Assembly (NCBI GenBank): GCA_902803635.1
Contig: CADCQU010000206.1
Span: 1-11,137, forward strand
Length of the DNA: 11,137 nucleotides
Origin: an uncultured Lachnospiraceae bacterium
GTDB lineage: Bacteria; Bacillota; Clostridia; Lachnospirales; Lachnospiraceae
Direction of reading: 5' to 3'
In this document: positions 1-11,137 of the stretch, in pieces
How positions within the stretch are numbered: the first letter of the stretch is position 1
Layout: the number at the start of each line of letters is the position of its first letter
Notes under the pieces: generated by a model
Database searches by the model: none
Told to the model about the DNA's origin: nothing
The model's input: the letters and a program-made list of their open reading frames with translations, nothing else
Program-made: the position numbers and the translations under genes

Positions 1-76
1 CAAATGCCAGCGACAGGGCGCAGCAGATCGTGGATTTTCCAATCCCGCCCTTGCCGTAAATTGCGATTTTTTTCAT
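1..76 (-). CDS. NifH/ParA-type P-loop ATPase, N-terminal fragment
   Basis: Only the first 25 codons are in the window; the gene continues past the left edge. It begins MKKIAIYGKGGIGKSTI, a deviant Walker A motif (GKGGIGKST) preceded by IAIYG, which is typical of nitrogenase iron protein (NifH) and the related BchL/ChlL/CfbC reductases, and less exactly of MinD/ParA proteins. The start is supported by a GAGGTGG ribosome binding site four to five bases upstream. The gene lies 71 nt downstream of a TM1266-type hydrogenase regulator on the same strand, so the two probably share a transcript. Family knowledge: NifH-like proteins use ATP to pass electrons from a 4Fe-4S cluster to a partner enzyme. 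The cluster cysteines and the partner would lie outside the window, so a nitrogenase-like role is inference and another ParA-like ATPase is possible. Confidence 0.75.
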   Translation of the reverse strand, partial: MKKIAIYGKGGIGKSTICCALSLAF

Positions 77-95
77 AAAACCACCTCAGTTTTTC

Positions 96-112
96 GCATG
101 GATTACCCATGC
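96..112 (-). other. Small stem-loop before the NifH-like gene
   Basis: GCATGG and CCATGC form a perfect 6-bp stem with a 5-nt loop in the 71-nt gap between the TM1266 gene and the NifH-like gene. It ends about 20 nt before the NifH-like start codon, just upstream of its ribosome binding site. It could affect translation or mRNA processing. No U-tract follows, so it is not a standard terminator. It may also be chance. Confidence 0.3.
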
Positions 113-147
113 ACATGCATTGGATGGATGAAATTCCACGATATTCC

Positions 148-393
148 TTAGTTCTTCGCGTAGATCGCCCGTGCGCTGACGCCCGGAAGGCTTCCGAGCT
201 TGCCGGCGAGGGTGTTGATGAGGTCGGCGGGCGCGTCGAGGGCCACGCTGATGATGCTGACGCCGCGCTTTTCGTACGGGATCCCCATGCGGCCGATGAT
301 GTAGGCCGCCGCCCCGTGCAAAAGGTCCTGGACGGCATTTGCCGCATTTGCATCCTCTATGATAATTCCCAGAATGGCGAGCCTTGTACCCAT
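148..393 (-). CDS. TM1266-family putative iron-only hydrogenase system regulator
   Basis: An 81-aa protein, the usual length for this small family (named after Thermotoga maritima TM1266), found mainly in organisms with [FeFe]-hydrogenase maturation genes and proposed to regulate that system. Recognisable blocks are LAILGIIIED near the N-terminus, the core IIGRMGIPY at residues 32-40, SIISVALDAP at 46-55, and the closing LAGKLGSLPGVSARAIYAK at 62-80. The family has a ferredoxin-like fold resembling the C-terminal domain of NikR; no DNA-binding domain is visible, so its mode of action is unknown. The start at 393 is chosen because a perfect AGGAGG lies four bases upstream; a longer frame to 483 would run through the leader terminator. 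It is the first gene of a probable operon with the NifH-like ATPase, and none of hydE, hydF or hydG is in the window. Confidence 0.87.
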   Translation of the reverse strand: MGTRLAILGIIIEDANAANAVQDLLHGAAAYIIGRMGIPYEKRGVSIISVALDAPADLINTLAGKLGSLPGVSARAIYAKN

Positions 394-600
394 ATGGCCT
401 CCTGTCAAATATTTAGGGTTCCGGGGCAGCTGCGGCTTCCGAAAAAAGAAGCGCACCCCGAAGGATGCGCAAAAGACAGCCAAATGGCTGTGAAGGGTCT
501 TTTAAACGCAGCTTCGGACGCAACGGACGTTTTGCCCTCAGATGTGCAGGTATATGTTGGGGGAGCTTTCCGGTCAGGCGACGACCTTTCCGTAAGCTGA
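394..600 (-). promoter_or_regulatory. Structured leader of the TM1266/NifH-like operon (candidate attenuator or riboswitch)
   Basis: About 200 nt separate the probable transcription start (near 600) from the start codon at 393. Read on the minus strand it holds: a hairpin with outer arms AGCTT/AAGCT and inner arms GGTC/GACC (about 566-600); arms AAACG/CGTTT enclosing a GC-rich stretch (about 504-532); a perfect ACAGCC/GGCTGT hairpin with a 4-nt loop (476-491); and a strong terminator at 442-470. Promoter, folded RNA, terminator, then gene is the usual order for transcription attenuation. I could not match it to a riboswitch class I know. It could instead be a small RNA of about 150 nt ending at the terminator. 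Confidence 0.45.
442..470 (-). terminator. Intrinsic terminator inside the leader, upstream of the TM1266 gene
   Basis: On the minus strand GCGCATCC and GGGTGCGC form an 8-bp stem (one G-U pair) closed by a TTCG tetraloop and followed by TTCTTTTTT. Stem, stable tetraloop and T-tract make a textbook rho-independent terminator. It lies about 50 nt before the TM1266 start codon and downstream of a likely promoter, so it may control read-through. It could also simply end transcription from the protease operon further upstream. Confidence 0.8.
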
Positions 601-605
601 AGTCC

Positions 606-636
606 ATTATAACATAATTCCCCAAAAATGGGGGAT
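606..636 (-). promoter_or_regulatory. Extended -10 promoter with overlapping dyad
   Basis: On the minus strand a perfect TATAAT (606-611) is preceded by TG plus one base, giving an extended -10 element. No good -35 box sits 16-18 bp upstream. That position is instead occupied by a short dyad, ATTCCCC/GGGGGAT on the plus strand (617-623 and 630-636, one G-T pair, 6-base spacer). Extended -10 promoters can work without a -35 box, and a dyad here would suit an operator. It would drive the leader and the TM1266/NifH-like genes. Confidence 0.5.
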
Positions 637-657
637 ATATTTTCTATTTTTGTAAGG

Positions 658-689
658 ATCCCGTAAGTTTTTCGCAAAGTTAACGGGAT
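658..689. other. Stem-loop between the protease operon and the TM1266 promoter
   Basis: ATCCCGT (658-664) and ACGGGAT (683-689) form a perfect 7-bp stem around an 18-nt AT-rich loop. It lies about 70-100 nt downstream of the protease stop codon. No T-tract follows on either strand, so I do not call it a terminator, although it may protect or end the protease mRNA. Confidence 0.35.
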
Positions 690-717
690 TCTTCGTCGCT
701 ACGCTCCTCAGAATGAC
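688..717 (-). repeat. Dispersed intergenic repeat of the CATTCTGAGGAGCGTAGCGA type
   Basis: This 30-bp stretch, read on the minus strand, is an imperfect hairpin with ATTCT/AGAAT arms and inner G-A mismatches. In one frame it encodes the peptide HSEERSDEESR, which I recognise as a recurrent spurious peptide in bacterial annotations produced by a widespread intergenic repeat. It lies about 40 bp downstream of the protease stop codon. Copy number in this genome cannot be seen from one copy, so the repeat label rests on recognition, not on a second copy here. Confidence 0.55.
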
Positions 718-755
718 AAAAAGATGGTACGTCTGAATAGAGAATAACAAAAAAC

Positions 756-3700
756 TTACAACGTCGTCCTCTCAGCGTACCAGACAACGCCATTGTAGGT
801 CCAGCCGGCTTTTTTCCTCGCAAGGGCCGTGGTGCGGCTCGTGGTGTAGAAGTAGGTCGGCTTTTTCCCTTCCTTGCAGAGCTCGTAGACGGGCACCTCG
901 TCGGACATGGAGGCGTAGAAGGCAAAGCTCGCCTCATTGCCGGCCTTGATGGCGGCCTTGGCCTTGGCGCGGGAGAGGGTATAGCGGCGGCGTTTCGTCT
1001 TCACGTCGTAAATGCAATACACCGCCTTTTCGGATTTTCCGGCCGCGCGGAAGGCTTTCTGGCAGTGCCAGCCCTGGCGGGTAAGCTTTTTTACGGTGTC
1101 GGTATTGATGGTATAGAGGTACGCGCCGTCCTTTTCGCAGGCATAGACAAAGATCTGCTTTACCGAGACGGAGCACTCGGCGAAGACACCGTTGCCGGCG
1201 GTGGCGGTGATGGTGCAGGAGCCACAGCGGACGGCTTTGACATTTCCCTTCGCGTCGACCGTTGCCACCTTCGGGTTGCTGCTCTTCCAGGTGATGTCGC
1301 GGTCCACGGCATCCTCCGGTAAGGCAAGGGCCGTGAGACGGACGGAGAGGCCGACGTTTAGCTCCGCGCTCGTCCTGTTAAGCGAGACCTTTGTCACATG
1401 CGCGTAGGAGGCGACGAGGAGACAGGAGGCCTGCGTGCCATTTGCCGTGGCTGCCGTGATGGTGGTGGAGCCTTCGCGGTTGATGGTGACGAAGCCCTGC
1501 GGACTCACCGCCGCCACCCACTGGTCGCTGGAGGACCAGATGACCGTCGCGTCCACGGCGTCCTCCGGGGAGGTCGTCGCGGTGAGGGTCAGGGAGCGGC
1601 CAACGTAGCCTTCCACGTAGGTTTCGCTCAGCGTGACCTCCTGCACGGGGGGAGGCGTGACCACGATGCTGCAGAACGCCCGTGTTCCATTTGCCGTCCC
1701 CGCAAGGATGGTGCAGGCACCGGCCGTCTGGCTGGTCACGAGGCCGTTCGCGTCCACCGTCGCCACCTCCGGGTCGCTCGATGTCCAGAAAATCTCCGGG
1801 TCGGCGGCACCTAAAGGGAGAGCATAGGCAGATAGCGACAGAATGTCTCCAATGCCCATCTCCGCGTGTTCCGTATCAAGGTCAATCATCGTGACGGGAG
1901 GAAGCTTTACGGAAAGGTAGCAGAACGCGCGGACGCCATTTGCTGAGACCGCGAGAATCGCGCAGGTGCCGAGTGAAATGGTGGTGACGAGGCCATTCGC
2001 GTCCACCGTGGCCACGGACGGGTCGCTGGACGACCACGTGATGGCGGTGTCGATGGCATCCTCGGGGATGGCAAATGCCGTAAGCTGGAGGTTTTCCCCA
2101 ATAATGAGGTCTGCCGTCGCCCGGTCAAGGACGACCTCCGTCACGTGGGGGTAGGCTGCCGTGACCTTGCAGTAGGCCTTGACACCGTTGTCGGTCATGG
2201 CACGGATGGTCGCCGTGCCCTCCGCGAGGGCCGTGAGGAGGCCCGTGTCGCTGACCGTGCAGACAGCCTCGTTCCCGGAGACCCAGGTGAGGTGGTCGGG
2301 GGCTTTTTTCGGGAGGACCGTCGCGGTGAGCTGCCAGGTCGTTTCGGGACGGAGGGTGAGGGTGCTCTCGCTGAGGACGACCTCCTTCGGGCTCGGCAGC
2401 GGACGTTTGGCGCGGACCTCGGGGGACGTGCCGGGCTCGTAGGAGATGCCGCCTTTGACCGGGACGATCTTGTAGGTGCAGAAAAGGTCCGCGCAGAGCT
2501 CGGTGTCCACGAAGGAGCGGACGTCGGAAGCTGTGGTTCCAATCAGGGTATAAACTCCAAGGATAGGGTCGTCCTCTTCAGCAGTATCGGAAGAAACACC
2601 TTCCGAGCTCTCGGTTTCTGCGGCTTCGCTCTCCGCTGCCGGAAGGGGCGAAGAGCCATCCTCCGCAGGGGTGTTTTCCTCCTCCACCAGCCGCCACACC
2701 TCGTAGCCTTCCGCGTCCTTCGCGGCGGACCAGGTGAGGGAGAGGCCGTCCTCGGTGTTCTTGTGAAGGACGAGGTTCGTTACCGCGTCCGGAAGTTCTG
2801 CCTCGCTCCGGTCATTTGTCAGGGAACGGATGCAGAGGTTTCCGCGTGCGCCCTTGTACGACTTCTCGGCAAGGTCCACCCAGGCGCCATTTGTAAAATA
2901 GAAGCTCTCCGCCTCGTGCATGGTGACGTCCATGTTGAGCTGTTCTTTCCAGAGATTGTCGCACTCGCGGTCGATGGGCTTTTCGGTTTCGATGACCACG
3001 GCAAATGTCTCGCCGAGGGTGAGGGGGACGGGATTTGTCAGCGGGATGGTGTATTTTCCGGCGAGCGCGAGGGTCCCGGTCGTCGTGGCCTCCTCGATCA
3101 GCGTCCCGCTCTCGGGCTGGTAAGCGTCCGCCAGATTCCGATAAATGGACACACGGTATGCGCCGGGGGCATTTTCGGAAGCGTCAAATTGCACCGCCGA
3201 AAGCTCTTCGGCTTCCTTGACGGCCACGAAGACGTTGGCGACCTTGGTCGTGGCCACGCTCTTTACGCTGTGGAGCTGCCCGTCGTAGTAGTATTGGTTG
3301 TCGTAGGTTTCGCCCTTGTCCATGTCGGCCATCTCGTAGATGTAGGCGGCCTGGGCGAGGCTCGTGTCGTAATAGGAAATCCAGAAATAGGACTCCTCGT
3401 CAAAGCGGGTGTCCGTCGAATGACTGTTCCGGATGAGCCAGGCCCCGTTCCCCGGAGGAAGCTCTTTGAAGTTTTCGGCGGGATATGCATCGTCCCAGCC
3501 CACGGCGGTCACGACGTGGTTGAACCAGTCCAGCTCATAGTTATAGTAGGCATTTGTCTCGGAATTGAGGTATTTCGGGTCCGAATTGTAGGCCACGCCG
3601 GCCGCGCCATTTGCCAGAATGGCTTCTTTTATAATGTGGGAGTTCTCGTGGAGGTTCACGTAGAAGGCGTTTTTGAGATAGGCAATATCATAATTCGTGG

Positions 3701-4472
3701 CAAATTCGTCGGCGAGACCATCTGCCAGCACGTTTTCTGCGTTTGCATAGGAAGTCTCGTCGGCATCTGCTGTATAGCCCTTCTGCCGCATGAGGCTCTG
3801 GGAGGCCATCGCGAGGTTCCCGCCGAAGTTCAGGAAGTGCCTGTGGCTGCCGAGCGTAAGGTCGAGGTACGCAAGGTCATCCGTCGGACCCGAGATCGGC
3901 TCGGGGCACTGGTGGTAGGCGAAATAGGCAAGCTGCAGCTCGCTGTAATTGGTTTCGCGGCTTGCCGGTGCGAGCTTGTCCCGAAGGCCGTGGTTGATCA
4001 TGTAGAATTCGGCGAGGGCCGCGGCCGCGTGCGCCCAGCAGCTCCCGTAGTGGACGCCGTTCGTGGTCTGGTTGCGCGTGGCGGGGTAACGCTCCGTAAG
4101 GTAGGCGAGGATCTCGTCCTCGGTGGGGTAATCCGGGAATTTCGAGGGGAGCACATCCGGATCTTCCGGAACCACCTCCGGATCCGGATCCTCGGGGTCG
4201 TCTTCCAACGGATCTCCCGCCGGCCTGGCGGACTGGTCTTCCTCCCCGTCCACCATCATCTCCTGGACGGCCGCGTAGCGGAGGCTCTGGTCGACGGCCG
4301 CCACGTTGTTCTCGTCCCAGGGCGCGGCGGCATAGCCATCGTCCCACGCCTCCGTTCCGGCTTCGGCAAATGTCAGCTCCGTTTCAGTTTCGGCAAATGC
4401 CGCTTCCGCGGGGAGTGTCGAGAGGGCCAGCAGGACGGACAGGACAAATGCAAGACCTTTCTTTACGCGCAT
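756..4472 (-). CDS. Secreted papain-family (C1) cysteine protease with lectin-like, FnIII, five BIG2 and DUF5648-like domains
   Basis: A 1238-aa exported protein. Residues 1-27 are a signal peptide (basic start, hydrophobic core, AFA cleavage site), followed by an acidic Asp/Glu/Pro linker to about 107. The C1 peptidase domain (about 110-390) shows the catalytic triad: Cys145 in YGSCWAH, His319 in NHVVTAVGWDD and Asn349 in LIRNSHS. About 395-550 resembles the lectin-like domain often following such peptidases. A fibronectin type III-like domain (560-690) carries a Ser/Glu-rich insertion (about 597-637). Five BIG2 Ig-like domains follow (about 695-1106), each with ITW or similar and a closing cysteine. 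The end (1108-1238) resembles DUF5648, with FYTTS and AGWTYNGVVWYA. No LPXTG, SLH or terminal membrane anchor is visible, so it is secreted or held non-covalently. AAGGAG lies six bases before the ATG and overlaps the stop codon of the upstream phosphatase gene (12-nt gap), indicating co-transcription. The substrate is unknown. Confidence 0.9.
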   Translation of the reverse strand: MRVKKGLAFVLSVLLALSTLPAEAAFAETETELTFAEAGTEAWDDGYAAAPWDENNVAAVDQSLRYAAVQEMMVDGEEDQSARPAGDPLEDDPEDPDPEVVPEDPDVLPSKFPDYPTEDEILAYLTERYPATRNQTTNGVHYGSCWAHAAAALAEFYMINHGLRDKLAPASRETNYSELQLAYFAYHQCPEPISGPTDDLAYLDLTLGSHRHFLNFGGNLAMASQSLMRQKGYTADADETSYANAENVLADGLADEFATNYDIAYLKNAFYVNLHENSHIIKEAILANGAAGVAYNSDPKYLNSETNAYYNYELDWFNHVVTAVGWDDAYPAENFKELPPGNGAWLIRNSHSTDTRFDEESYFWISYYDTSLAQAAYIYEMADMDKGETYDNQYYYDGQLHSVKSVATTKVANVFVAVKEAEELSAVQFDASENAPGAYRVSIYRNLADAYQPESGTLIEEATTTGTLALAGKYTIPLTNPVPLTLGETFAVVIETEKPIDRECDNLWKEQLNMDVTMHEAESFYFTNGAWVDLAEKSYKGARGNLCIRSLTNDRSEAELPDAVTNLVLHKNTEDGLSLTWSAAKDAEGYEVWRLVEEENTPAEDGSSPLPAAESEAAETESSEGVSSDTAEEDDPILGVYTLIGTTASDVRSFVDTELCADLFCTYKIVPVKGGISYEPGTSPEVRAKRPLPSPKEVVLSESTLTLRPETTWQLTATVLPKKAPDHLTWVSGNEAVCTVSDTGLLTALAEGTATIRAMTDNGVKAYCKVTAAYPHVTEVVLDRATADLIIGENLQLTAFAIPEDAIDTAITWSSSDPSVATVDANGLVTTISLGTCAILAVSANGVRAFCYLSVKLPPVTMIDLDTEHAEMGIGDILSLSAYALPLGAADPEIFWTSSDPEVATVDANGLVTSQTAGACTILAGTANGTRAFCSIVVTPPPVQEVTLSETYVEGYVGRSLTLTATTSPEDAVDATVIWSSSDQWVAAVSPQGFVTINREGSTTITAATANGTQASCLLVASYAHVTKVSLNRTSAELNVGLSVRLTALALPEDAVDRDITWKSSNPKVATVDAKGNVKAVRCGSCTITATAGNGVFAECSVSVKQIFVYACEKDGAYLYTINTDTVKKLTRQGWHCQKAFRAAGKSEKAVYCIYDVKTKRRRYTLSRAKAKAAIKAGNEASFAFYASMSDEVPVYELCKEGKKPTYFYTTSRTTALARKKAGWTYNGVVWYAERTTL

Positions 4473-4484
4473 GGTTTTCTCCTT

Positions 4485-6704
4485 TTAACGGTCAAGGTCA
4501 AAGGTCAGCGTGAGGCGGTTTTGGCCGTCCTCATAGGCGTAGTGGGTGGTTTTGGCAATATTCTGGATGAGGAGGATGCCCATGCCGCCGGTGTCGAAGT
4601 CGTCAAAGTCCTTGTCGGGAGAGGCCTCGAAGGGGTTGAAGGGGGTGCCGTCGTCAACGAAGATGAGGCTGAGGTCGCTGTCATTTTTGCGGATTTCGTA
4701 ACCGATGGCGGTGGCTTTGGAGTAGCTGATGATGTTGACGAAGGCCTCCTCCGCGGCGAGGAGGATCTGCTTGGCTTCGGGGCTTCTTCCCACGATATTT
4801 AAAACCGTCTCCTTGATAACGTCAAAAGAGGAGAGGGCGGGCTCCAGCGAGCCGTAGAAGGCTGGGTTGTTCATGGAAATATCCTCCTTTGAAGGGGTGG
4901 CTGTTGAAACGGCGGTCGCCGAGGTGCCATTTGCCGAAATGATGCCCGCCGAGGAATCATTGGTCGCCGGGGCGCCATTTGCCGAAACGATGCCCGCCGA
5001 GGAAGCATTGGCCGCCGGGGCACCATTTGCCAAAGTGATATCGCCCGAGGAATCGTCCGCCGAAGGGGCTGCGTTGTCGCCACCGAGATACCGTACGGTG
5101 GCCATGGTCATGTCGTCAAATTGTTCCGCTCCGGCGGCGAAGGTGTCGACGGAGGAGAGGACGCCGGCGAGGACGGCCTGCGTGGACGTCTGTTCGGTCT
5201 GGAAGAATTTCAGGAGGCGGTCCATGCCGTAGAAGGTTTTGTCGATGCTCACGGACTCGGTAATCCCGTCCGTGTAGAGGAAAATGCCCTCTCCGGGGGC
5301 GAGCGTAAACTCTTCGTCCTCCAGGCCCGCATCTTCAAAAAGTGCCATGGCAATGCCGGGAGCAGGTGTATACAAACGTGGCTCGCCGTTTCCGTAGAGG
5401 ACCGGCGGGTTATGCCCGGCATTTGCCGCAAGAACCTTTCCTGTAAGCACGTCCAGCACCATGGCAAAGACCGTGACGAACATGCCCTCGGGATTCTGTG
5501 CGCAGAGCTCGTCATTTGCCCGGTTCAGGGCCTCCGCGGGGCTAAAGCCCAGCGAGAGAAGCTCGTGCAGTGTGGATTTCGCCATGGCCATAAAGAGCGC
5601 AGCCGTGATTCCCTTGCCGGAGACGTCCGCCATGACCACGCAGAGGTTCCCGTCGCGGCGGAAGAAGCAGTCGTAGAAATCGCCGCCGACCTCCCTCGCC
5701 GGCCGCATGGAGGCGGAAACCTCCGCGGCTGCCTTTTTCTCATAGAAGGTGGCCGGAACCATGCCGTATTGGATATTGCGGGCGATATCGAGCTGGGCAT
5801 GGACACGGGCCTGCGCATCGGCAATCTTCTTCTGGTTCTCGGTGTAGACGCGGATGTCCTTCGTCATTTTCTTGAAGGAGTCTGCAATCTCCTGCATTTC
5901 GTCCATCGAGGTGATGTGGAGCGGCTCCGCATGGAGATCCTGGCCGGAGGCAAAGCCAGACATCGCCTTGGAAATTTTGGCGAGCGGCAGGAAGACGCGC
6001 CTTCGCAGGATGAAGACGAGCAGGAACATCGTGGTCAGGAGGACGAGGAAGTATGGGATGGTGGCTGCAAGGAAGGAGCTGAGAAACTGGCTCACGAAGG
6101 AGGATACGAGGATGTCGCCCGTGATGACCGCGACCACCTTGCCGCTGTGGTCCTTGACGGGAAGCGTCCAGGAAATCACCTTGCCGTATTTATTGTCCGA
6201 GCTCCAGTACTGCGGCTCCTCGCTCCCGGCGAAGGCGGCCTTCTCCGCACTGCTAAAGTCCGCATCGATGACGGTGCCGTATCTTCGCTCGGCGCGCACC
6301 ATGGCGTCATCCGTATCACTGCTCGCGACAACGTAGAGGAACTCTACGCTATGGTCGTAAGGCCCTTTGGTGACGACGTAAATGTACTGCAGGCCGAACT
6401 TCTGGCAAATGTCTCGCATCAGGATTCGGGAGGAGGAGTAGGCTCCGGCGCTGATGGGCTTTGTAAGATCGATGTCCATCAGGATGGTCTTGCAAAGCTC
6501 CAGGGCTCCGAGGGCATCCTTTTTTGTCTCCGCGAGGATGCGGTCGAATTGGAGCTTGAAGGACAGGAGTCCGGAGATAATCGTGCTGAGAAGGATCGCG
6601 ATGAGGAAAAGGCGCAGGATGACGGCCTGGATGGAGTGCTTTTTGCGCAAGGAATCCATGAGGGTCGCTTTGGGGGTTTCGGTGTTTTTCCTGGAATTGG
6701 ACAT
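4485..6704 (-). CDS. Membrane SpoIIE-type PP2C phosphatase fused to an RsbW-like kinase domain
   Basis: A 739-aa signalling protein. A first membrane helix (about 27-48), an extracytoplasmic Cache-like sensor (50-207) and a second helix (208-234) lead to a HAMP segment (235-285) and short coiled coil. The PP2C/SpoIIE domain (300-541) shows GGDFYD at 340-345, MADVSGKG at 358-365, NAGHNPP at 428-434, LYTDGITE at 476-483 and DDMTM at 530-534. A repetitive Ala/Ser-rich linker (542-610) joins a HATPase domain (615-739) with an E-x5-N box near 652-658, DDGTPFNPF and GGMGILLI. In such systems PP2C dephosphorylates, and RsbW/SpoIIAB kinases phosphorylate, a STAS antagonist of an anti-sigma factor; here both activities sit in one chain, and no STAS gene is in view. 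The start at 6704 has AAGGAG six to seven bases upstream; a frame to 6875 would include non-coding 40-bp repeats. The protease gene follows after 12 nt. Confidence 0.92.
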   Translation of the reverse strand: MSNSRKNTETPKATLMDSLRKKHSIQAVILRLFLIAILLSTIISGLLSFKLQFDRILAETKKDALGALELCKTILMDIDLTKPISAGAYSSSRILMRDICQKFGLQYIYVVTKGPYDHSVEFLYVVASSDTDDAMVRAERRYGTVIDADFSSAEKAAFAGSEEPQYWSSDNKYGKVISWTLPVKDHSGKVVAVITGDILVSSFVSQFLSSFLAATIPYFLVLLTTMFLLVFILRRRVFLPLAKISKAMSGFASGQDLHAEPLHITSMDEMQEIADSFKKMTKDIRVYTENQKKIADAQARVHAQLDIARNIQYGMVPATFYEKKAAAEVSASMRPAREVGGDFYDCFFRRDGNLCVVMADVSGKGITAALFMAMAKSTLHELLSLGFSPAEALNRANDELCAQNPEGMFVTVFAMVLDVLTGKVLAANAGHNPPVLYGNGEPRLYTPAPGIAMALFEDAGLEDEEFTLAPGEGIFLYTDGITESVSIDKTFYGMDRLLKFFQTEQTSTQAVLAGVLSSVDTFAAGAEQFDDMTMATVRYLGGDNAAPSADDSSGDITLANGAPAANASSAGIVSANGAPATNDSSAGIISANGTSATAVSTATPSKEDISMNNPAFYGSLEPALSSFDVIKETVLNIVGRSPEAKQILLAAEEAFVNIISYSKATAIGYEIRKNDSDLSLIFVDDGTPFNPFEASPDKDFDDFDTGGMGILLIQNIAKTTHYAYEDGQNRLTLTFDLDR
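4874..4890 (-). promoter_or_regulatory. Internal ribosome binding site and start codon before the RsbW-like domain
   Basis: Inside the phosphatase gene the minus strand reads AAAGGAGGAT (4881-4890), then eight bases after AGGAGG an in-frame ATG (4872-4874) for Met611, starting MNNPAFYGSL. This is at least as good as the site before the full gene. Initiation here would give a free 129-aa kinase domain (4485-4874), the usual size of stand-alone RsbW/SpoIIAB-like proteins, and the domain boundary coincides with the site. It suggests that two genes were fused in frame while the second kept its start, or that both forms are made. Confidence 0.6.
4927..5070 (-). repeat. Three 48-bp tandem repeats in the linker of the phosphatase/kinase gene
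   Basis: Units 4927-4974, 4975-5022 and 5023-5070 each begin CCATTTGCC on the plus strand; the first two are nearly identical and the third has diverged. Each encodes 16 residues of the type SSAGIVSANGAPATN (minus strand), between the PP2C and HATPase domains. Because 48 is a multiple of three, copy number can change without a frameshift, so linker length may vary between strains. Each unit carries one copy of the over-represented word CATTTGCC. Confidence 0.85.
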
Positions 6705-6775
6705 AGATTTCTCCTTGGAAAAGAATTTGAAAGAGGCGGGAGGATTCCTGGTTGCGAGGGCGACATTTGGAGAGT

Positions 6776-6864
6776 GCCAAATGGAATCCTTTCGCATGAG
6801 ATCAGCATGGGAGCTGCCAAATGGAATCCTTTCGCATGAGATCAGTCTGGGAGCTGCCAAATGG
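6776..6864 (-). repeat. Two and a quarter 40-bp tandem repeats upstream of the phosphatase gene
   Basis: Units 6776-6815 and 6816-6855 match at 38 of 40 positions; a third partial copy starts at 6856 with GCCAAATGG. They fill half of the 174-bp gap between the phosphopantetheinyl transferase stop and the phosphatase start, ending about 70 bp from the latter. A 40-bp period is not a multiple of three, which argues against coding, and is close to four helical turns, which would place repeated binding sites on one face of the DNA. I see no convincing -35/-10 pair in this gap. Confidence 0.8.
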
Positions 6865-6878
6865 TATATTTGCACAGG

Positions 6879-7562
6879 CTACATTTTCGACGGTTGGTCC
6901 ATGATGCCGCTAAGCCAGGCCCTGTCCGGGAGCTGCAGGGAAAAGACGACAAGGCGAAGGGACGGGAAGGCGGACACGGGGGTCTTGAGGGACTCCTCCA
7001 GCGGAAGGCAGCGGCATTTACAGAGGGCTTCCTTGAGGGTCCAGAGGCGAAGGCGCTCGCTGGCATCGGCGGAGGCTTCGCCGGGGGCAAAGAAATGCTC
7101 CGCAACCTCCGGATCGACGGCAGTTGTCTCGACGTCCACCCCGCAGGGAACCTTCGCGACGGCGCAGGCCGCCCAGGGGCCTGCGTGTGAGAGACTGAAA
7201 TGCACGGGCGTCCCTTCGAGGTAGGGCTTCCCGTAGGGGTCGCGAAGGATGTGCAGGTGTTTTCCCGGCGGTTCTTCGGCATACAGAAGGCCGCCGGGAG
7301 AGAGCGCTTGCAAATGGCTGGCGAAGCTTTCCGGATGCTGCAGCGGTGCGGCCGCTTCCAGGGCTTCGGCGAGCATTTGCCGCGATAGCACCTCCGCAAA
7401 GAGCGTCCGTATGCGGTCGGCGTTCTGCCGATAGCGTAGGACGCGGGCGTGGGAGCTATCGGGCAGAAGCGAAAGACAGGCTTCCGCCGGCGATTGCAGC
7501 AATTCGTGAAGAGAAAGAAGACCGATGCGCATGCCTTCTGCAAGGAAATATTGTATCTGCAT
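6879..7562 (-). CDS. 4'-phosphopantetheinyl transferase, Sfp type
   Basis: A 227-aa protein of the superfamily that moves 4'-phosphopantetheine from coenzyme A to a serine of acyl or peptidyl carrier proteins. Conserved blocks appear in the usual order: GKPYLEG at 111-117, HFSLSHAG at 121-128, the metal-binding GVDVE at 141-145, FFAPGE at 157-162, and WTLKEAL with the catalytic-region Lys177 and Glu178. Length matches Sfp (about 224 aa). The ATG at 7562 has AAGGA about 11 bases upstream. An ATG at 7532 (MRIGLLSLHE) lines up better with the Sfp N-terminus but has only AGAAGG one base away, so the start is uncertain. No polyketide or non-ribosomal peptide gene is nearby, so the target may be the fatty-acid acyl carrier protein. 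It lies between the pgi terminator and the 40-bp repeats, and I see only a weak promoter candidate before it. Confidence 0.88.
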   Translation of the reverse strand: MQIQYFLAEGMRIGLLSLHELLQSPAEACLSLLPDSSHARVLRYRQNADRIRTLFAEVLSRQMLAEALEAAAPLQHPESFASHLQALSPGGLLYAEEPPGKHLHILRDPYGKPYLEGTPVHFSLSHAGPWAACAVAKVPCGVDVETTAVDPEVAEHFFAPGEASADASERLRLWTLKEALCKCRCLPLEESLKTPVSAFPSLRLVVFSLQLPDRAWLSGIMDQPSKM

Positions 7563-7672
7563 GGCCAGGCGGATCCTTTCCTATAATCTGTTCTCCATTT
7601 TACACCAAATTCCTTAGAAATGCTTTACTTATTCTGTGAAAAATTTAGATTTTTGCATTTGCAGGAAAACGC

Positions 7673-7703
7673 AAAAAATCCCACGGGCGGCTGGCCCGTG
7701 GGA
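7673..7703 (-). terminator. Intrinsic terminator of pgi
   Basis: On the minus strand CCCACGGGC and GCCCGTGGG form a perfect 9-bp stem with a 5-nt loop, extended by a T-A pair, and run into TTTTTT. It begins 24 nt after the pgi stop codon, so it ends the pgi transcript and separates it from the phosphopantetheinyl transferase gene. Confidence 0.93.
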
Positions 7704-7727
7704 AATATGATCAGATGCAGGGAATAA

Positions 7728-9308
7728 TCAGAAGATTCCCAGAAGGTCGCTGAAGGCGGTGAGGGCACCGTCGGTGTCCTTGGCGAGGACCTTCTTGGCA
7801 AGGAGCTTGCCGAGCTGCACGCCTTCCTGGTCGAAGCTGTTGAGGTTCCAGATAAAGCCCTGGAACATGACCTTGTTCTCGAAATGCGCAAGGAGCGCGC
7901 CGAGCGATGCGGGCGTGAGCTGCTCGCCCACGATGATGCTGGACGGGCGGTTGCCGGCGAAGAATTTGTTCGGGTTGTCGCTCGATTTGCCGAGGGCAAA
8001 CGCCATAATCTGGGCGGCGACATTTGCCGAAAGCTTCTGCTGGCTCGTGCTGCCTTCGATGACAACGTCGTTGGCCATCTGGCTCTTCTTATAGCCGACG
8101 AACTGCAGCGGGATGATGTCCGTGCCCTGATGGAGCAGCTGGTAGAACGAATGCTGGCCGTTCGTGCCGGGCTCGCCGAAAATGATGGGGCCGGTGCGGT
8201 AGCTGACCGGTTCGGCGAAGCGGTTCACGCTCTTGCCGTTCGACTCCATGTCAAGCTGCTGCAAATGTGCCGGGAAGCGGATGAGGGCCTGCGAGTAGGG
8301 CAGGACCGCCGTTGCGAAGGCACCGAGGAAATTGCGCTCGTAGACGCCGATGAGGGCGTCGAGCATGGCCGGGTTCTGGCAAATGTCCGTGTTCCTGGCG
8401 AGCTTGTCCTCTGCGGCCGCGCCTTCGAGGATCTGCGCGAAGACGTCCGCGCCAAATGCAAGCGAGAGGATCACGCCGCCGACTGCGGAGGTTGCCGAGT
8501 AACGGCCGCCGATGTAGTCGTCCATGTAGAAGGAGTCGAGGTAGTCGGGGTTGCCGGCCAGCGGGGAGGTCTCGCTTGTGACGGCGAGCATGTGCTTCGA
8601 CGGGTCGAGGCCGGCCGCGATGAGCGCGTTCTTTACGAAGGCCTCGTTGGTCAGGGTCTCCAGGGTCGTGCCGGATTTGGAGACGACGATGAAGAGGGAG
8701 TGCGCAAGGTCAACGGTGGCAAGGACTGCGGAAGCATCGTCCGGGTCCACGTTGCTGATGAAGCGGGCTTCCATCTTGAAACAGCCATTTGCCCTTGCCC
8801 AGTTTTCGAGGGCGTGGTAAAGCGCGCGCGGGCCAAGGTCGCTCCCGCCGATGCCGATCTGGACGGCGGTGGTGAACTTCTCGCCCTTTTCATTTGTAAT
8901 CTCGCCGGCATGGACCTTCGCGGCAAATTCGCCGGCGCGGCGCTGCTGCTCGACGTAGAAGAGGCGCTTGTCGGTTCCATCGGCGAGCACCGGCTCCCCG
9001 AGCTGCCCGCGGCAGAGCTGGTGGAGCACCAGGCGCTTCTCGCCGGTGTTGATCATCTCACCGTTGTAGAGGGCCTCGTACTTTTTCGTGAGCTCCGCCT
9101 CGTCCGCCAGTCCCTGCAGGGCGGCGAGGATGTCGTCGTCCACCTGCTTGGCGGCGAAGCTGTAGACCATGCCGCTCGACATGGGAACCTGGTATTTGGC
9201 AACACGCTCCGCGCCTGCCTCCCCCGCAAGGGCGACAGGAAGCTCCGGGGCCTTCAGGGCCGCCAGCTTTTTGTAGGAATCCAGCTTATCAAAATTTAAC
9301 CACTGCAT
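7728..9308 (-). CDS. pgi: Glucose-6-phosphate isomerase
   Basis: A 526-aa cytosolic enzyme interconverting glucose-6-phosphate and fructose-6-phosphate in glycolysis and gluconeogenesis. Visible blocks are IGIGGSDLGPRALY at 151-164, the phosphate-binding SKSGTTLETLTN at 210-221, IGGRYSATSAVG at 266-277, MESNGK with the catalytic-base Glu355, GTNGQHSFYQ with His386, and GVQLGK with Lys501 near the C-terminus. The start at 9308 is set by AGGAGG seven bases upstream; the in-frame ATG at 9383 would place the promoter inside the coding region. One oddity: the second signature, usually Gln-x-Gly-Val-Glu, reads DQEGVQLGK, with Gln498 in place of Glu. The other catalytic residues are intact, so activity is expected. 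It appears monocistronic, with its own promoter and terminator. Confidence 0.97.
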   Translation of the reverse strand: MQWLNFDKLDSYKKLAALKAPELPVALAGEAGAERVAKYQVPMSSGMVYSFAAKQVDDDILAALQGLADEAELTKKYEALYNGEMINTGEKRLVLHQLCRGQLGEPVLADGTDKRLFYVEQQRRAGEFAAKVHAGEITNEKGEKFTTAVQIGIGGSDLGPRALYHALENWARANGCFKMEARFISNVDPDDASAVLATVDLAHSLFIVVSKSGTTLETLTNEAFVKNALIAAGLDPSKHMLAVTSETSPLAGNPDYLDSFYMDDYIGGRYSATSAVGGVILSLAFGADVFAQILEGAAAEDKLARNTDICQNPAMLDALIGVYERNFLGAFATAVLPYSQALIRFPAHLQQLDMESNGKSVNRFAEPVSYRTGPIIFGEPGTNGQHSFYQLLHQGTDIIPLQFVGYKKSQMANDVVIEGSTSQQKLSANVAAQIMAFALGKSSDNPNKFFAGNRPSSIIVGEQLTPASLGALLAHFENKVMFQGFIWNLNSFDQEGVQLGKLLAKKVLAKDTDGALTAFSDLLGIF

Positions 9309-9354
9309 ATTTGTTCCTCCTATGAACAGAATGGCCGAAGAAATACCTACAACA

Positions 9355-9383
9355 AATATACTAAAAACGGAGAGATTTTTCAA
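9355..9383 (-). promoter_or_regulatory. Housekeeping-type promoter of pgi
   Basis: On the minus strand TTGAAA (9378-9383) and TATATT (9355-9360) match the sigma-A -35 and -10 boxes at five of six positions each, with an ideal 17-bp spacer. The start codon is at 9308, giving a leader of about 40 nt that includes the AGGAGG site. The region around it is clearly richer in A and T than the genes. Confidence 0.8.
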
Positions 9384-9413
9384 TGAAATCTATCGAAATT
9401 TCCTAAAAATTCA

Positions 9414-9450
9414 TTTTTTCTTTGGCGGCTTAAGCCTCCGGAAGAAAAAA
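9414..9450. other. AT-flanked imperfect palindrome upstream of pgi
   Basis: GGCTTAAGCC (9427-9436) is a perfect 10-bp palindrome. It is extended outward by GG/CC and TT/AA steps with mismatches, and bounded by T6 on the left and A6 on the right. It lies just upstream of the pgi promoter and about 30 bp from the possible cre site. The T-before, A-after order is the reverse of an intrinsic terminator. Its function is unknown. Confidence 0.4.
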
Positions 9451-9482
9451 CTTCGACCGAGGATAATATGTATATAGAATTG

Positions 9483-9496
9483 TGAAAACGTTTCTA
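9483..9496. promoter_or_regulatory. Possible catabolite response element (CcpA site)
   Basis: TGAAAACGTTTCTA matches the cre consensus TGNAANCGNWNNCA at all fixed positions but one (T for the second-last C) and contains the palindrome AAACGTTT. It lies between the divergent pgi and cpaF genes, 100 bp upstream of the pgi -35 box and 240 bp from the cpaF start. CcpA control of either gene is inference; a single degenerate site can occur by chance. Confidence 0.3.
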
Positions 9497-9518
9497 ATAT
9501 GTGCATGGCTTGATGTTT

Positions 9519-9616
9519 TGCACAAAAATGGGTGTGGATTTTTTGTGCATATTGTCGATCAAAAGGGTTCGGAAATTGGCGTTTTGCACGAAAAATCCAC
9601 ACCAAAATTCGTACAA
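9519..9616. repeat. Nested inverted-repeat element upstream of cpaF
   Basis: Three overlapping inverted repeats are visible. TGCACAAAAA (9519-9528) pairs perfectly with 9540-9549. TTGCACGAA (9584-9592) pairs with 9608-9616 at eight of nine positions. The longest is 9531-9549 with 9585-9603, 18 of 19 positions, carrying GGTGTGGATTTTT. The long pairing uses one arm of each short hairpin, so they cannot all form together. The 300-bp stretch before cpaF otherwise holds no supported gene; short open frames through it are products of the palindromes. It could be a dispersed palindromic element, a protein-binding region or an alternating RNA fold. Confidence 0.65.
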
Positions 9617-9625
9617 CATTCCGTC

Positions 9626-9655
9626 TTGTGCAGAGTGTGGATACATTGGTATGCT
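9626..9655 (+). promoter_or_regulatory. Weak candidate promoter for cpaF
   Basis: TTGTGC (9626-9631) and TATGCT (9650-9655) are 18 bp apart, and the second is preceded by TG plus one base, an extended -10 feature. The matches to consensus are only three and four of six. It would give a leader of about 60 nt to the start at 9723. Other starts further upstream, before the palindromes, are possible. Confidence 0.25.
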
Positions 9656-9722
9656 GGAAGCACGAAACCGAGGCCGCGGGCAGTTGGAACGGGATATGGG
9701 GCGGCCTGGAAAGGGGGCAGAC

Positions 9723-11012
9723 ATGGGAGTGGAAAAGCAGGATTGGATTCAGGAAGACCGAAGGACGACTGGAAGGCCGGAACGGCCGGGAGGGTACGGG
9801 GCTGATGCGGAACGGCAACGAGGGAGGCAAATGGAGGAGGAGCGGCTGGAACGGCTGCGGGGGTACCTCGTGGAGGAGCTTGGCCCCGAGAACGCCAGGG
9901 AGGATGCCGTCATCATGCAGAAGATCACGGCCCTTGTCGGGGAGGAGCATCGAAAAAGCCCGATGACGCTCGCGGTCCGCTCACGGCTTGCGGCGGAGCT
10001 ATTTGCCAGCGTGCGGGGACTTGGGCTTTTGCAGGAACTTCTCGACGACCCGGAGGTGACCGAGATCATGGTCAACGGCCCGGAGCGGATATTTGTCGAG
10101 AAGGACGGAAAAATCCGTCGCTGGGAGAGGTCCTTTCCCTCGGAGGAGAAGCTGATGGACCTCATCCGGCAGGTCGCGGGCAAATGCGACCGCGTGATTA
10201 ACGAGCAGAGCCCGGTGGTGGATGCGCGACTTGCGGACGGGAGCCGCGTCTGCGCGGTGGTGCCGCCGGTGGCCCTTGGCGGCGCGGTCCTCTCCATCCG
10301 GAAATTTCCGAAGGAGCCGATCACGCTCTCGGAGCTGGTGCGGCTCGGGACGATTCCCGGGGAGGCGGCCGACTTCTTAGCCCGCCTCGTGCGCGCGGGC
10401 TACTCGGTGCTCATCGGCGGCGGGACCAGCGCCGGGAAGACGACATTTCTAAATGCGCTTTCGGCATGCATTCCCAAGGACGAGCGCATCGTGACCGTGG
10501 AGGACAACGCGGAACTCGTGCTGCAGGGGCTGGAGAACCTGGTGCGGCTCGAAGCAAAGTCCTCGAACCTCGAGGGGGCGGCGGACATCACCATCCGCGA
10601 CCTCGTGAAGGCAAGCCTCCGGATGCGCCCCGACCGGATCGTGGTCGGCGAGGTCCGCGGCGGCGAGGCCGTGGATCTCCTCCAGGCGCTCAACACGGGA
10701 CACGAAGGAAGCCTCTCGACCATCCATGCGAATTCGGCCGAGGACATGGTCTCGCGCCTTGAGATGATGGTGCTCATGGCCTTCCCGCTGCCGCTCCCGG
10801 CGATTCGCAGGCAGATAGCAAGTGGCGTCGATATTTTCGTGTTCCTCAAGCGCCATCGAGATGGAAAGCGGCGGGTGGTGGAGATTATGGAGACCGACGG
10901 GCTTTTCGAGGACAATGTCCGCCTCCGCCCGCTCTTTCTGTGGGATGCCGAAGACGGCAGGCTCCGGCAGGCCGGAAAGCTTCTGCATACGGAGAAACTT
11001 TCAAGGATATGA
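9723..11012 (+). CDS. cpaF: CpaF/TadA-type secretion ATPase
   Basis: A 429-aa ATPase of the type II/IV secretion superfamily that powers Tad (Flp-type) pilus assembly or related secretion at the inner face of the membrane. An N-terminal helical region leads to LLDDPEVTEIMVNGPERIFVEK (about 106-127), the typical CpaF N-terminal domain. The ATPase core shows the Walker A GGTSAGKTT (233-241), Asp box TVEDNAEL (258-265), Walker B region RIVVGEVRGGE (305-315) and His box TGHEGSLSTIHANS (325-338). All catalytic blocks are present. The start at 9723 has AAGGGGG five bases upstream; ATG 9831 (MEEERLERL), with GGGAGG three bases away, is an alternative giving 393 aa. The frame opens at 9501, but that part lies in palindromic DNA. 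tadB, tadC and pilin genes are not in the window; 125 bp of AT-rich DNA follows the stop codon. Confidence 0.94.
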   Translation: MGVEKQDWIQEDRRTTGRPERPGGYGADAERQRGRQMEEERLERLRGYLVEELGPENAREDAVIMQKITALVGEEHRKSPMTLAVRSRLAAELFASVRGLGLLQELLDDPEVTEIMVNGPERIFVEKDGKIRRWERSFPSEEKLMDLIRQVAGKCDRVINEQSPVVDARLADGSRVCAVVPPVALGGAVLSIRKFPKEPITLSELVRLGTIPGEAADFLARLVRAGYSVLIGGGTSAGKTTFLNALSACIPKDERIVTVEDNAELVLQGLENLVRLEAKSSNLEGAADITIRDLVKASLRMRPDRIVVGEVRGGEAVDLLQALNTGHEGSLSTIHANSAEDMVSRLEMMVLMAFPLPLPAIRRQIASGVDIFVFLKRHRDGKRRVVEIMETDGLFEDNVRLRPLFLWDAEDGRLRQAGKLLHTEKLSRI

Positions 11013-11103
11013 ACGGAAAATGCACCTTGACAATTGCATAGGGGCTTGCAGGTATAGTCGATAACAATAGTAAAACCATGAAAATATATTTAAAATAATT
11101 ATA

Positions 11104-11132
11104 TTTACTTTATCGATACATTGTGATACACT
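11104..11132 (+). promoter_or_regulatory. Candidate promoter at the right edge
   Basis: TTTACT (11104-11109) and TACACT (11127-11132) are 17 bp apart, and TGA precedes the -10 box, giving an extended -10. The DNA from 11060 on is very AT-rich. A direct repeat of GATACA at a 10-bp spacing overlaps the spacer and -10 box and might be a binding site. If real, it would start a transcript whose gene lies beyond the window. Confidence 0.4.
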
Positions 11133-11137
11133 CTGTA

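Follow-up and report, generated by a model that had tools for sequence, protein, structure and literature searches.

Contig CADCQU010000206.1 of assembly GCA_902803635.1, from an uncultured Lachnospiraceae bacterium, was analysed over its positions 1 to 11,137 (the window; contig C206 of genome G000), and the element in question is a short word, CATTTGCC with its reverse complement GGCAAATG, that recurs along this stretch. The six genes that we delimited form an ordinary-looking set, encoding a TM1266-like regulator, a C1-peptidase-like protein with Big_2 domains, a SpoIIE-type phosphatase, a phosphopantetheinyl transferase, a phosphoglucose isomerase and a T2SSE ATPase that we take to be CpaF-like. 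The GC content of 58.9% is close to the 60% estimated in the original prediction, whose counts of 20 octamers and 37 copies of the hexamer CATTTG/CAAATG were exact on recount; in 200 dinucleotide shuffles of the window, the octamer occurred 0.46 times on average (largest count 4) and the hexamer 5.16 times (largest count 12). The recount likewise agreed that both strands carry the octamer (12 copies on the plus and 8 on the minus strand) and that every delimited gene holds at least one. One hexamer lies, as predicted, within a leader hairpin at 476-491 (ACAGCC-AAAT-GGCTGT, with a stem of 6 bp), and the one near position 7658, described as non-coding, falls between delimited genes. Six entries are tandem and not independent, as had been cautioned: three octamers follow one another in 48-bp steps within a single gene, and three hexamers belong to a 40-bp repeat.

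The word is confirmed as real, very strong and genome-wide in G000, which comprises 2.42 Mb in 411 contigs and is 88.65% complete. The whole genome contains 2177 copies, of which one strand carries 1137 and the other 1040, compared with 49 for the reversed word used as control, so that a confinement to the window is refuted. A sample of 36 unmasked contigs, 304,878 bp in total, contained 308 copies, or 1.01 per kb, against an order-2 Markov expectation of 16. Five of 41 contigs (L099, L182, L192, L194 and L199) consist entirely of N; they were dropped from the polarity, spread and codon-shuffle tests and add only to the lengths in earlier sample counts. Genes were called with a simple codon-score script and not with a published gene finder. 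In the coding DNA of the sample, we found 269 copies versus 22 in within-gene shuffles of synonymous codons, an excess of about 12-fold that stands in the comparison set beforehand as the refuting test. All six frames were enriched, by about 4- to 21-fold, and 45.6 kb of intergenic DNA contained 37 copies versus 2.3 under the Markov null, about 16-fold.

The word prefers the frames GCA-AAT and TTT-GCC in G000 genes, which could point to a bias in codons or amino acids, or to context-dependent mutation, with no reader of the word at all; a mild excess of CATTT in named relatives (65 loci; at least 1.5-fold in 9 and at least 2-fold in none) would fit the same explanation. We regard it as very improbable because the excess is also intergenic and extends to both strands and every frame, and the earlier statements that the copies sit in different codon frames and that amino-acid choice cannot account for them are upheld. 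The word excess shifts the protein composition of G000: the dipeptide Ala-Asn occurs 378 times versus 232 expected from sibling genomes (G231 and G218 left out), which is rank 1 of 400.

The word consists of a strict core with graded outer positions. Of the 12 one-letter changes possible in the core ATTT (positions 2-5), 11 were below expectation in the G000 sample, the lone excess being CAGTTGCC (7 versus 4.5); summed over the core, 107 changed words were seen versus 160 expected. At the outer positions 1, 6, 7 and 8, all 12 one-letter changes were above expectation, by 1.2- to 8.8-fold and with CATTTGTC at the top. Word copies are gained by point substitution. In an alignment of 13.6 kb between G000 and its sister G231 (78.7% identity), 2 of 10 G000 words were shared, 8 were found in G000 only and 1 in G231 only. 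The G000-only words differ from G231 by both transitions and transversions; therefore, no single mutation type explains them, which again argues against mutation or codon bias as the cause. After codon correction, G was favoured two places upstream of the word (p = 1.7e-6), and the base one place upstream was not significant; this flank test is noisy, with far positions such as -20 deviating too. Three of the 17 called genes of at least 2.5 kb are wordless (L094:6567-10667, L183:8920-12900 and L200:1-2736), and the first two had no Pfam match. Two words overlapped a called start codon, and no link to start-codon context was seen in G000 genes; nor did a test in G000 find the word depleted where the codon use of genes is atypical.

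The counts of CATTTGCC cover three overlapping genome sets, each with G000 in it: the family (200 genomes, one per genus), the genus (42) and the class (291). The density in G000 is about 900 per Mb, and the sister-genome comparison suggested in the original prediction placed G231 (289 per Mb; 751 copies) and G218 (281; 871) next, followed by G089 (177; 512). None of the other genomes in these sets (199, 41 and 290, respectively, with overlap) exceeded one third of the G000 density. Related spellings on the core CATTT are favoured in sibling species. Among the 30 genus genomes with at least 12 kb sampled, one of which (G234) is represented by phage DNA, CATTT was at least 2-fold over codon shuffles in 10 (G000, G204, G205, G215, G221, G222, G223, G224, G227 and G231). 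Detailed spelling profiles were obtained for 12 genomes. CATTTG(C/T/A)C is the favoured spelling in G000, G231 and G218; G204 uses CATTT(G/A/T)CG, as CATTTGCG (26 versus 1.3), CATTTACG and CATTTTCG; TTCATTT followed by TC marks G205 (32 versus 4.7) and G221 (16 versus 2.7); G215 uses CATTT(T/C)C, with CATTTTC at 94 versus 23.7 and CATTTCC at 67 versus 16.6; and mixtures of CATTTTC and CATTTCC occur in G212, G214, G223 and G227. No CATTT excess was seen within the 16-40 kb examined of G200, G210 and G217. The raw whole-genome count of CATTTGCG peaks in G204 at 398. The raw counts of TTCATTTTC, which carry no codon correction and whose reversed control holds a stop codon, were highest in G222 (788), G203 (715), G205 (682) and G213 (657); despite its genome-wide count, the G213 sample had 1 versus 0.7 of this word in genes. 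On a tree of one gene, ComEC, covering 30 of the 42 genus genomes, G000 and G231 are sisters, and the groups G213-G222-G205, G221-G225, G239-G226 and G203-G212 each have high raw TTCATTTTC counts.

The spread of the word over the G000 contigs is nearly Poisson (chi2 49.5 on 35, p = 0.05). Because G000 is in 411 contigs, polarity was judged contig by contig, and none was found (chi2 39.3, p = 0.18, for 32 contigs; co-orientation of 75% of the copies would give about 99). The original prediction had considered genome-wide architectural words of the Chi or segregation type; the genome-wide part of that comparison stands, but the absence of contig polarity argues against both types. Like Chi and the FtsK-orienting polar sequences (KOPS), the word is short, over-represented and non-palindromic, and Chi words also differ among species, so that a Chi-like or other recombination or repair word, for which AddAB or a nuclease like it would be the reader, could be envisaged. 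We consider it improbable, given that the word, unlike Chi or KOPS, has no contig polarity, that its excess and density are above those of Chi, and that the known Chi words are G-rich. The nearly even spread would also suit a chromosome architecture word bound by a segregation or nucleoid protein. This is slightly less probable again: FtsK-type words are polar and the G000 word is not, and the turnover of positions seen against G231, together with the differing sibling spellings, is not what one would usually expect of a binding protein with a house-keeping role.

Another parallel is the cyanobacterial palindrome HIP1, which is tied to methyltransferases, is highly iterated, has alternates in some genomes and shows its one-letter deviations at the outermost letters (PMC4390886). 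The G000 profile resembles it in high iteration, in outer-position deviations and in the alternates of relatives. A methyltransferase could mark the motif, and a methylation-linked bias of mismatch repair could create and keep the copies with no DNA uptake. This alternative comes second in probability, well behind the uptake reading below; it has against it that CATTTGCC and the sibling spellings profiled are non-palindromic, unlike the HIPs. If a methylation or repair system were the cause, it would be, to our knowledge, the first HIP-like system outside cyanobacteria.

The best single reading, unproven and in our judgement not quite an even bet, is that G000 uses CATTTG(C/T/A)C as its own dialect of a self-recognition word resembling DNA uptake sequences (DUS). 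The resemblance to uptake sequences noted earlier holds, and the differing sibling spellings on a common core point the same way. The genome of Neisseria meningitidis contains about 1900 copies of a 10-mer DUS, and the Neisseriaceae have eight DUS dialects that share the core CTG and are consistent with phylogeny (PMC3630211). Similarly, the G000 word is non-palindromic and occurs at about one copy per kb (2177 in 2.42 Mb), combines a strict short core and graded outer letters with differing spellings in relatives, and is accompanied in its genome by type IV pilus and ComEC genes. It is unlike the Neisseriaceae DUS in its Lachnospiraceae host, in its core (CATTT versus CTG) and in its 8-9 letters with degenerate ends; furthermore, no excess of close inverted pairs was evident in the G000 sample, in which pairs were listed and not formally tested, and pilus presence is not tied to the CATTT word family. 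Uptake signal sequences (USS) of the Pasteurellaceae show a bias to gene ends and one preferred orientation in genes (PMC2346458). An orientation preference within genes is shared by G000 (165 versus 104), and a gene-end bias is not: the first and last 100 nt of G000 genes hold 28 words versus 37 expected. The copy number is also similar to that of the Pasteurellaceae words.

Under the uptake reading, the competence machinery would carry a DNA receptor, most plausibly a minor pilin of a type IV pilus, that binds word-bearing DNA better than other DNA; such DNA would enter through ComEC and recombine into the genome, and this molecular drive of biased uptake and recombination would turn near-matches into the word, up to about one copy per kb, with sibling species reading other extensions of the common CATTT core. 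Three points of this scheme are inferred: the word has a reader, this reader acts as a receptor for uptake, and uptake-driven drive gave rise to the excess. A type IV pilus operon on G000 contig C50 (L200) encodes, by family match, PilB, PilT, PilC, PilD and PilM together with a pilin that carries an N-methylation motif, and further pilin-like and PilN/PilO-like genes were assigned there by eye; the pilin-like genes are candidate word receptors. ComEC is present in 38 of the 42 genus genomes, including G000, and DprA in 40. PilT exceeds the family cut-off in 15 of the 42, among them G000, G231, G218 and G204. G218 has PilT and 49 copies of CATTTGC versus 10.8 expected, and its nearest relatives, with no PilT over the cut-off, have 5 versus 4.3 (G210) and 11 versus 4.5 (G230). 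We put forward a link between the pilus and the word purely as a hypothesis. The search for competence genes that had been proposed recovered ComEC and a pilus operon in G000 but not DprA, and the dedicated reader stays a suggestion: these genes are present, but the pilus does not co-vary with the CATTT family over the genus.

Several observations weigh against the uptake reading. The lack of an evident inverted-pair excess and of a gene-end bias is unlike some known uptake words, and the 2 of 10 words shared with G231 do not exceed the 21% of 8-letter windows that are identical as background. G218 groups on the ComEC tree with the word-poor G210 and G230, and the three CATTTGCC genomes are not one clade; the CATTTGCC label needs two changes on the tree, 48 of 500 label shuffles needed no more, and its clustering is not significant. 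DprA was not found in G000 at 88.65% completeness, G204, with its clear dialect, had no ComEC match, and clear words occur in G205, G215, G221 and G222, where PilT does not exceed the cut-off. With PilT as pilus marker and the ratio of CATTTNC to its reversed control as a crude measure of the word family, the 15 genomes with PilT ranked no higher than the 27 without (3.26 versus 3.33, one-sided p = 0.54); an association among sampled genomes (11 versus 19, p = 0.049), one row of which (G234) was phage DNA, is superseded by this whole-genome result. In the pilus contig itself (L200, 1-19097) the word is more depleted than in any other contig of the sample, with 7 copies versus 19.3 (p = 0.0012, uncorrected for the 36 contigs compared). 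Many genus genomes are fragmented and incomplete, and any competence in them is a prediction from genes.

Strong uptake preferences have been stated for two families, the Pasteurellaceae and the Neisseriaceae (PMC7811141), and among the matches listed in open-licence PMC (preprints excluded), titles and abstract openings mention no uptake word of Firmicutes, Clostridia or Gram-positive bacteria. A bolder proposal, somewhat more doubtful than the uptake reading itself, is that a Lachnospiraceae lineage invented Gram-positive sequence-specific uptake independently of these two families, and that its at least three CATTT dialects serve as barriers to transformation among relatives of different species. 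If true, this would be a third, independent and Gram-positive case, in which molecular drive as the origin of such words, the part of the machine that reads them and the isolation of species could be tested. Whether uptake or a methylation/repair system is the cause, a strong force shapes the DNA and even the protein sequence of G000. The individual copies in the window are listed in Table 1.

Table 1. Copies of the octamer CATTTGCC and of the hexamer CATTTG outside a full octamer in the window.
Feature	Position	Strand	Remark
Octamer	336..343	+	
Octamer	1439..1446	+	
Octamer	1688..1695	+	
Octamer	2070..2077	-	
Octamer	3000..3007	-	
Octamer	3608..3615	+	
Octamer	4365..4372	-	
Octamer	4392..4399	-	
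Octamer	4928..4935	+	48-bp-step triple
Octamer	4976..4983	+	48-bp-step triple
Octamer	5024..5031	+	48-bp-step triple
Octamer	5420..5427	+	
Octamer	5513..5520	+	
Octamer	6404..6411	-	
Octamer	7374..7381	+	
Octamer	8021..8028	+	CATTTGCA at the matching place in sibling G218
Octamer	8378..8385	-	
Octamer	8786..8793	+	
Octamer	9826..9833	-	
Octamer	10179..10186	-	
Hexamer	1..6	-	
Hexamer	345..350	+	as CATTTGCA
Hexamer	481..486	-	inside the 476-491 hairpin
Hexamer	1937..1942	+	
Hexamer	2813..2818	+	as CATTTGTC, top one-letter variant in the G000 sample
Hexamer	2888..2893	+	
Hexamer	3551..3556	+	as CATTTGTC
Hexamer	4445..4450	-	as CATTTGTC
Hexamer	6764..6769	+	
Hexamer	6778..6783	-	40-bp tandem repeat
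Hexamer	6818..6823	-	40-bp tandem repeat
Hexamer	6858..6863	-	40-bp tandem repeat
Hexamer	7311..7316	-	
Hexamer	7656..7661	+	between delimited genes
Hexamer	8262..8267	-	as CATTTGCA
Hexamer	8453..8458	-	
Hexamer	8891..8896	+	

Two candidates for further words were rejected. The array of ACCTTAGA in L012 is a 7-bp tandem repeat (CCTTAGA; L012:2364-2490, minus strand) and not a dialect, and G234 had looked like a sibling that lacks the word and favours a different one. Because its 60-kb sample is phage DNA, it is uninformative on the G234 host. Contig C1 of G234 (L153, L178 and L179) is a temperate-phage contig with terminase, portal, tape measure and integrase genes, and GCTACAC occurs 37 times in these 60 kb, on one strand only and more evenly spaced than by chance (coefficient of variation 0.46; none of 5000 random sets as even). 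GCTACAC is a polar, phage-wide word: 33 related viral loci of at least 11 kb (602 kb; among L252-L310, with the near-identical L252 left out) contain 206 copies on the terminase strand and 3 on the other, where 34 and 9 are expected, and it is the most polar of the 7-mers with at least 120 copies in them. In 1.53 Mb of genus host DNA that excludes G234, it is little enriched (63 versus 49), with a sense bias in genes of 49 versus 5, and its polarity comes partly from gene direction because it is sense-biased in host genes too.

Dispersed repeats resembling repetitive extragenic palindromes (REP) or miniature inverted-repeat transposable elements (MITE) were also seen in G000 (L081-L100), where their 12-mers include CTCAGAATGACA and CGAAGAATCCCG, and in G218 (L101-L110), where they include GCTCAGGATGAC and AGATCCTTCGCT. 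A dispersed repeat in G231 (L111-L120, 199 kb) is marked by the 12-mers CCGTGCCAAACA (20 copies) and GTGACCAGAAAC (15 copies).

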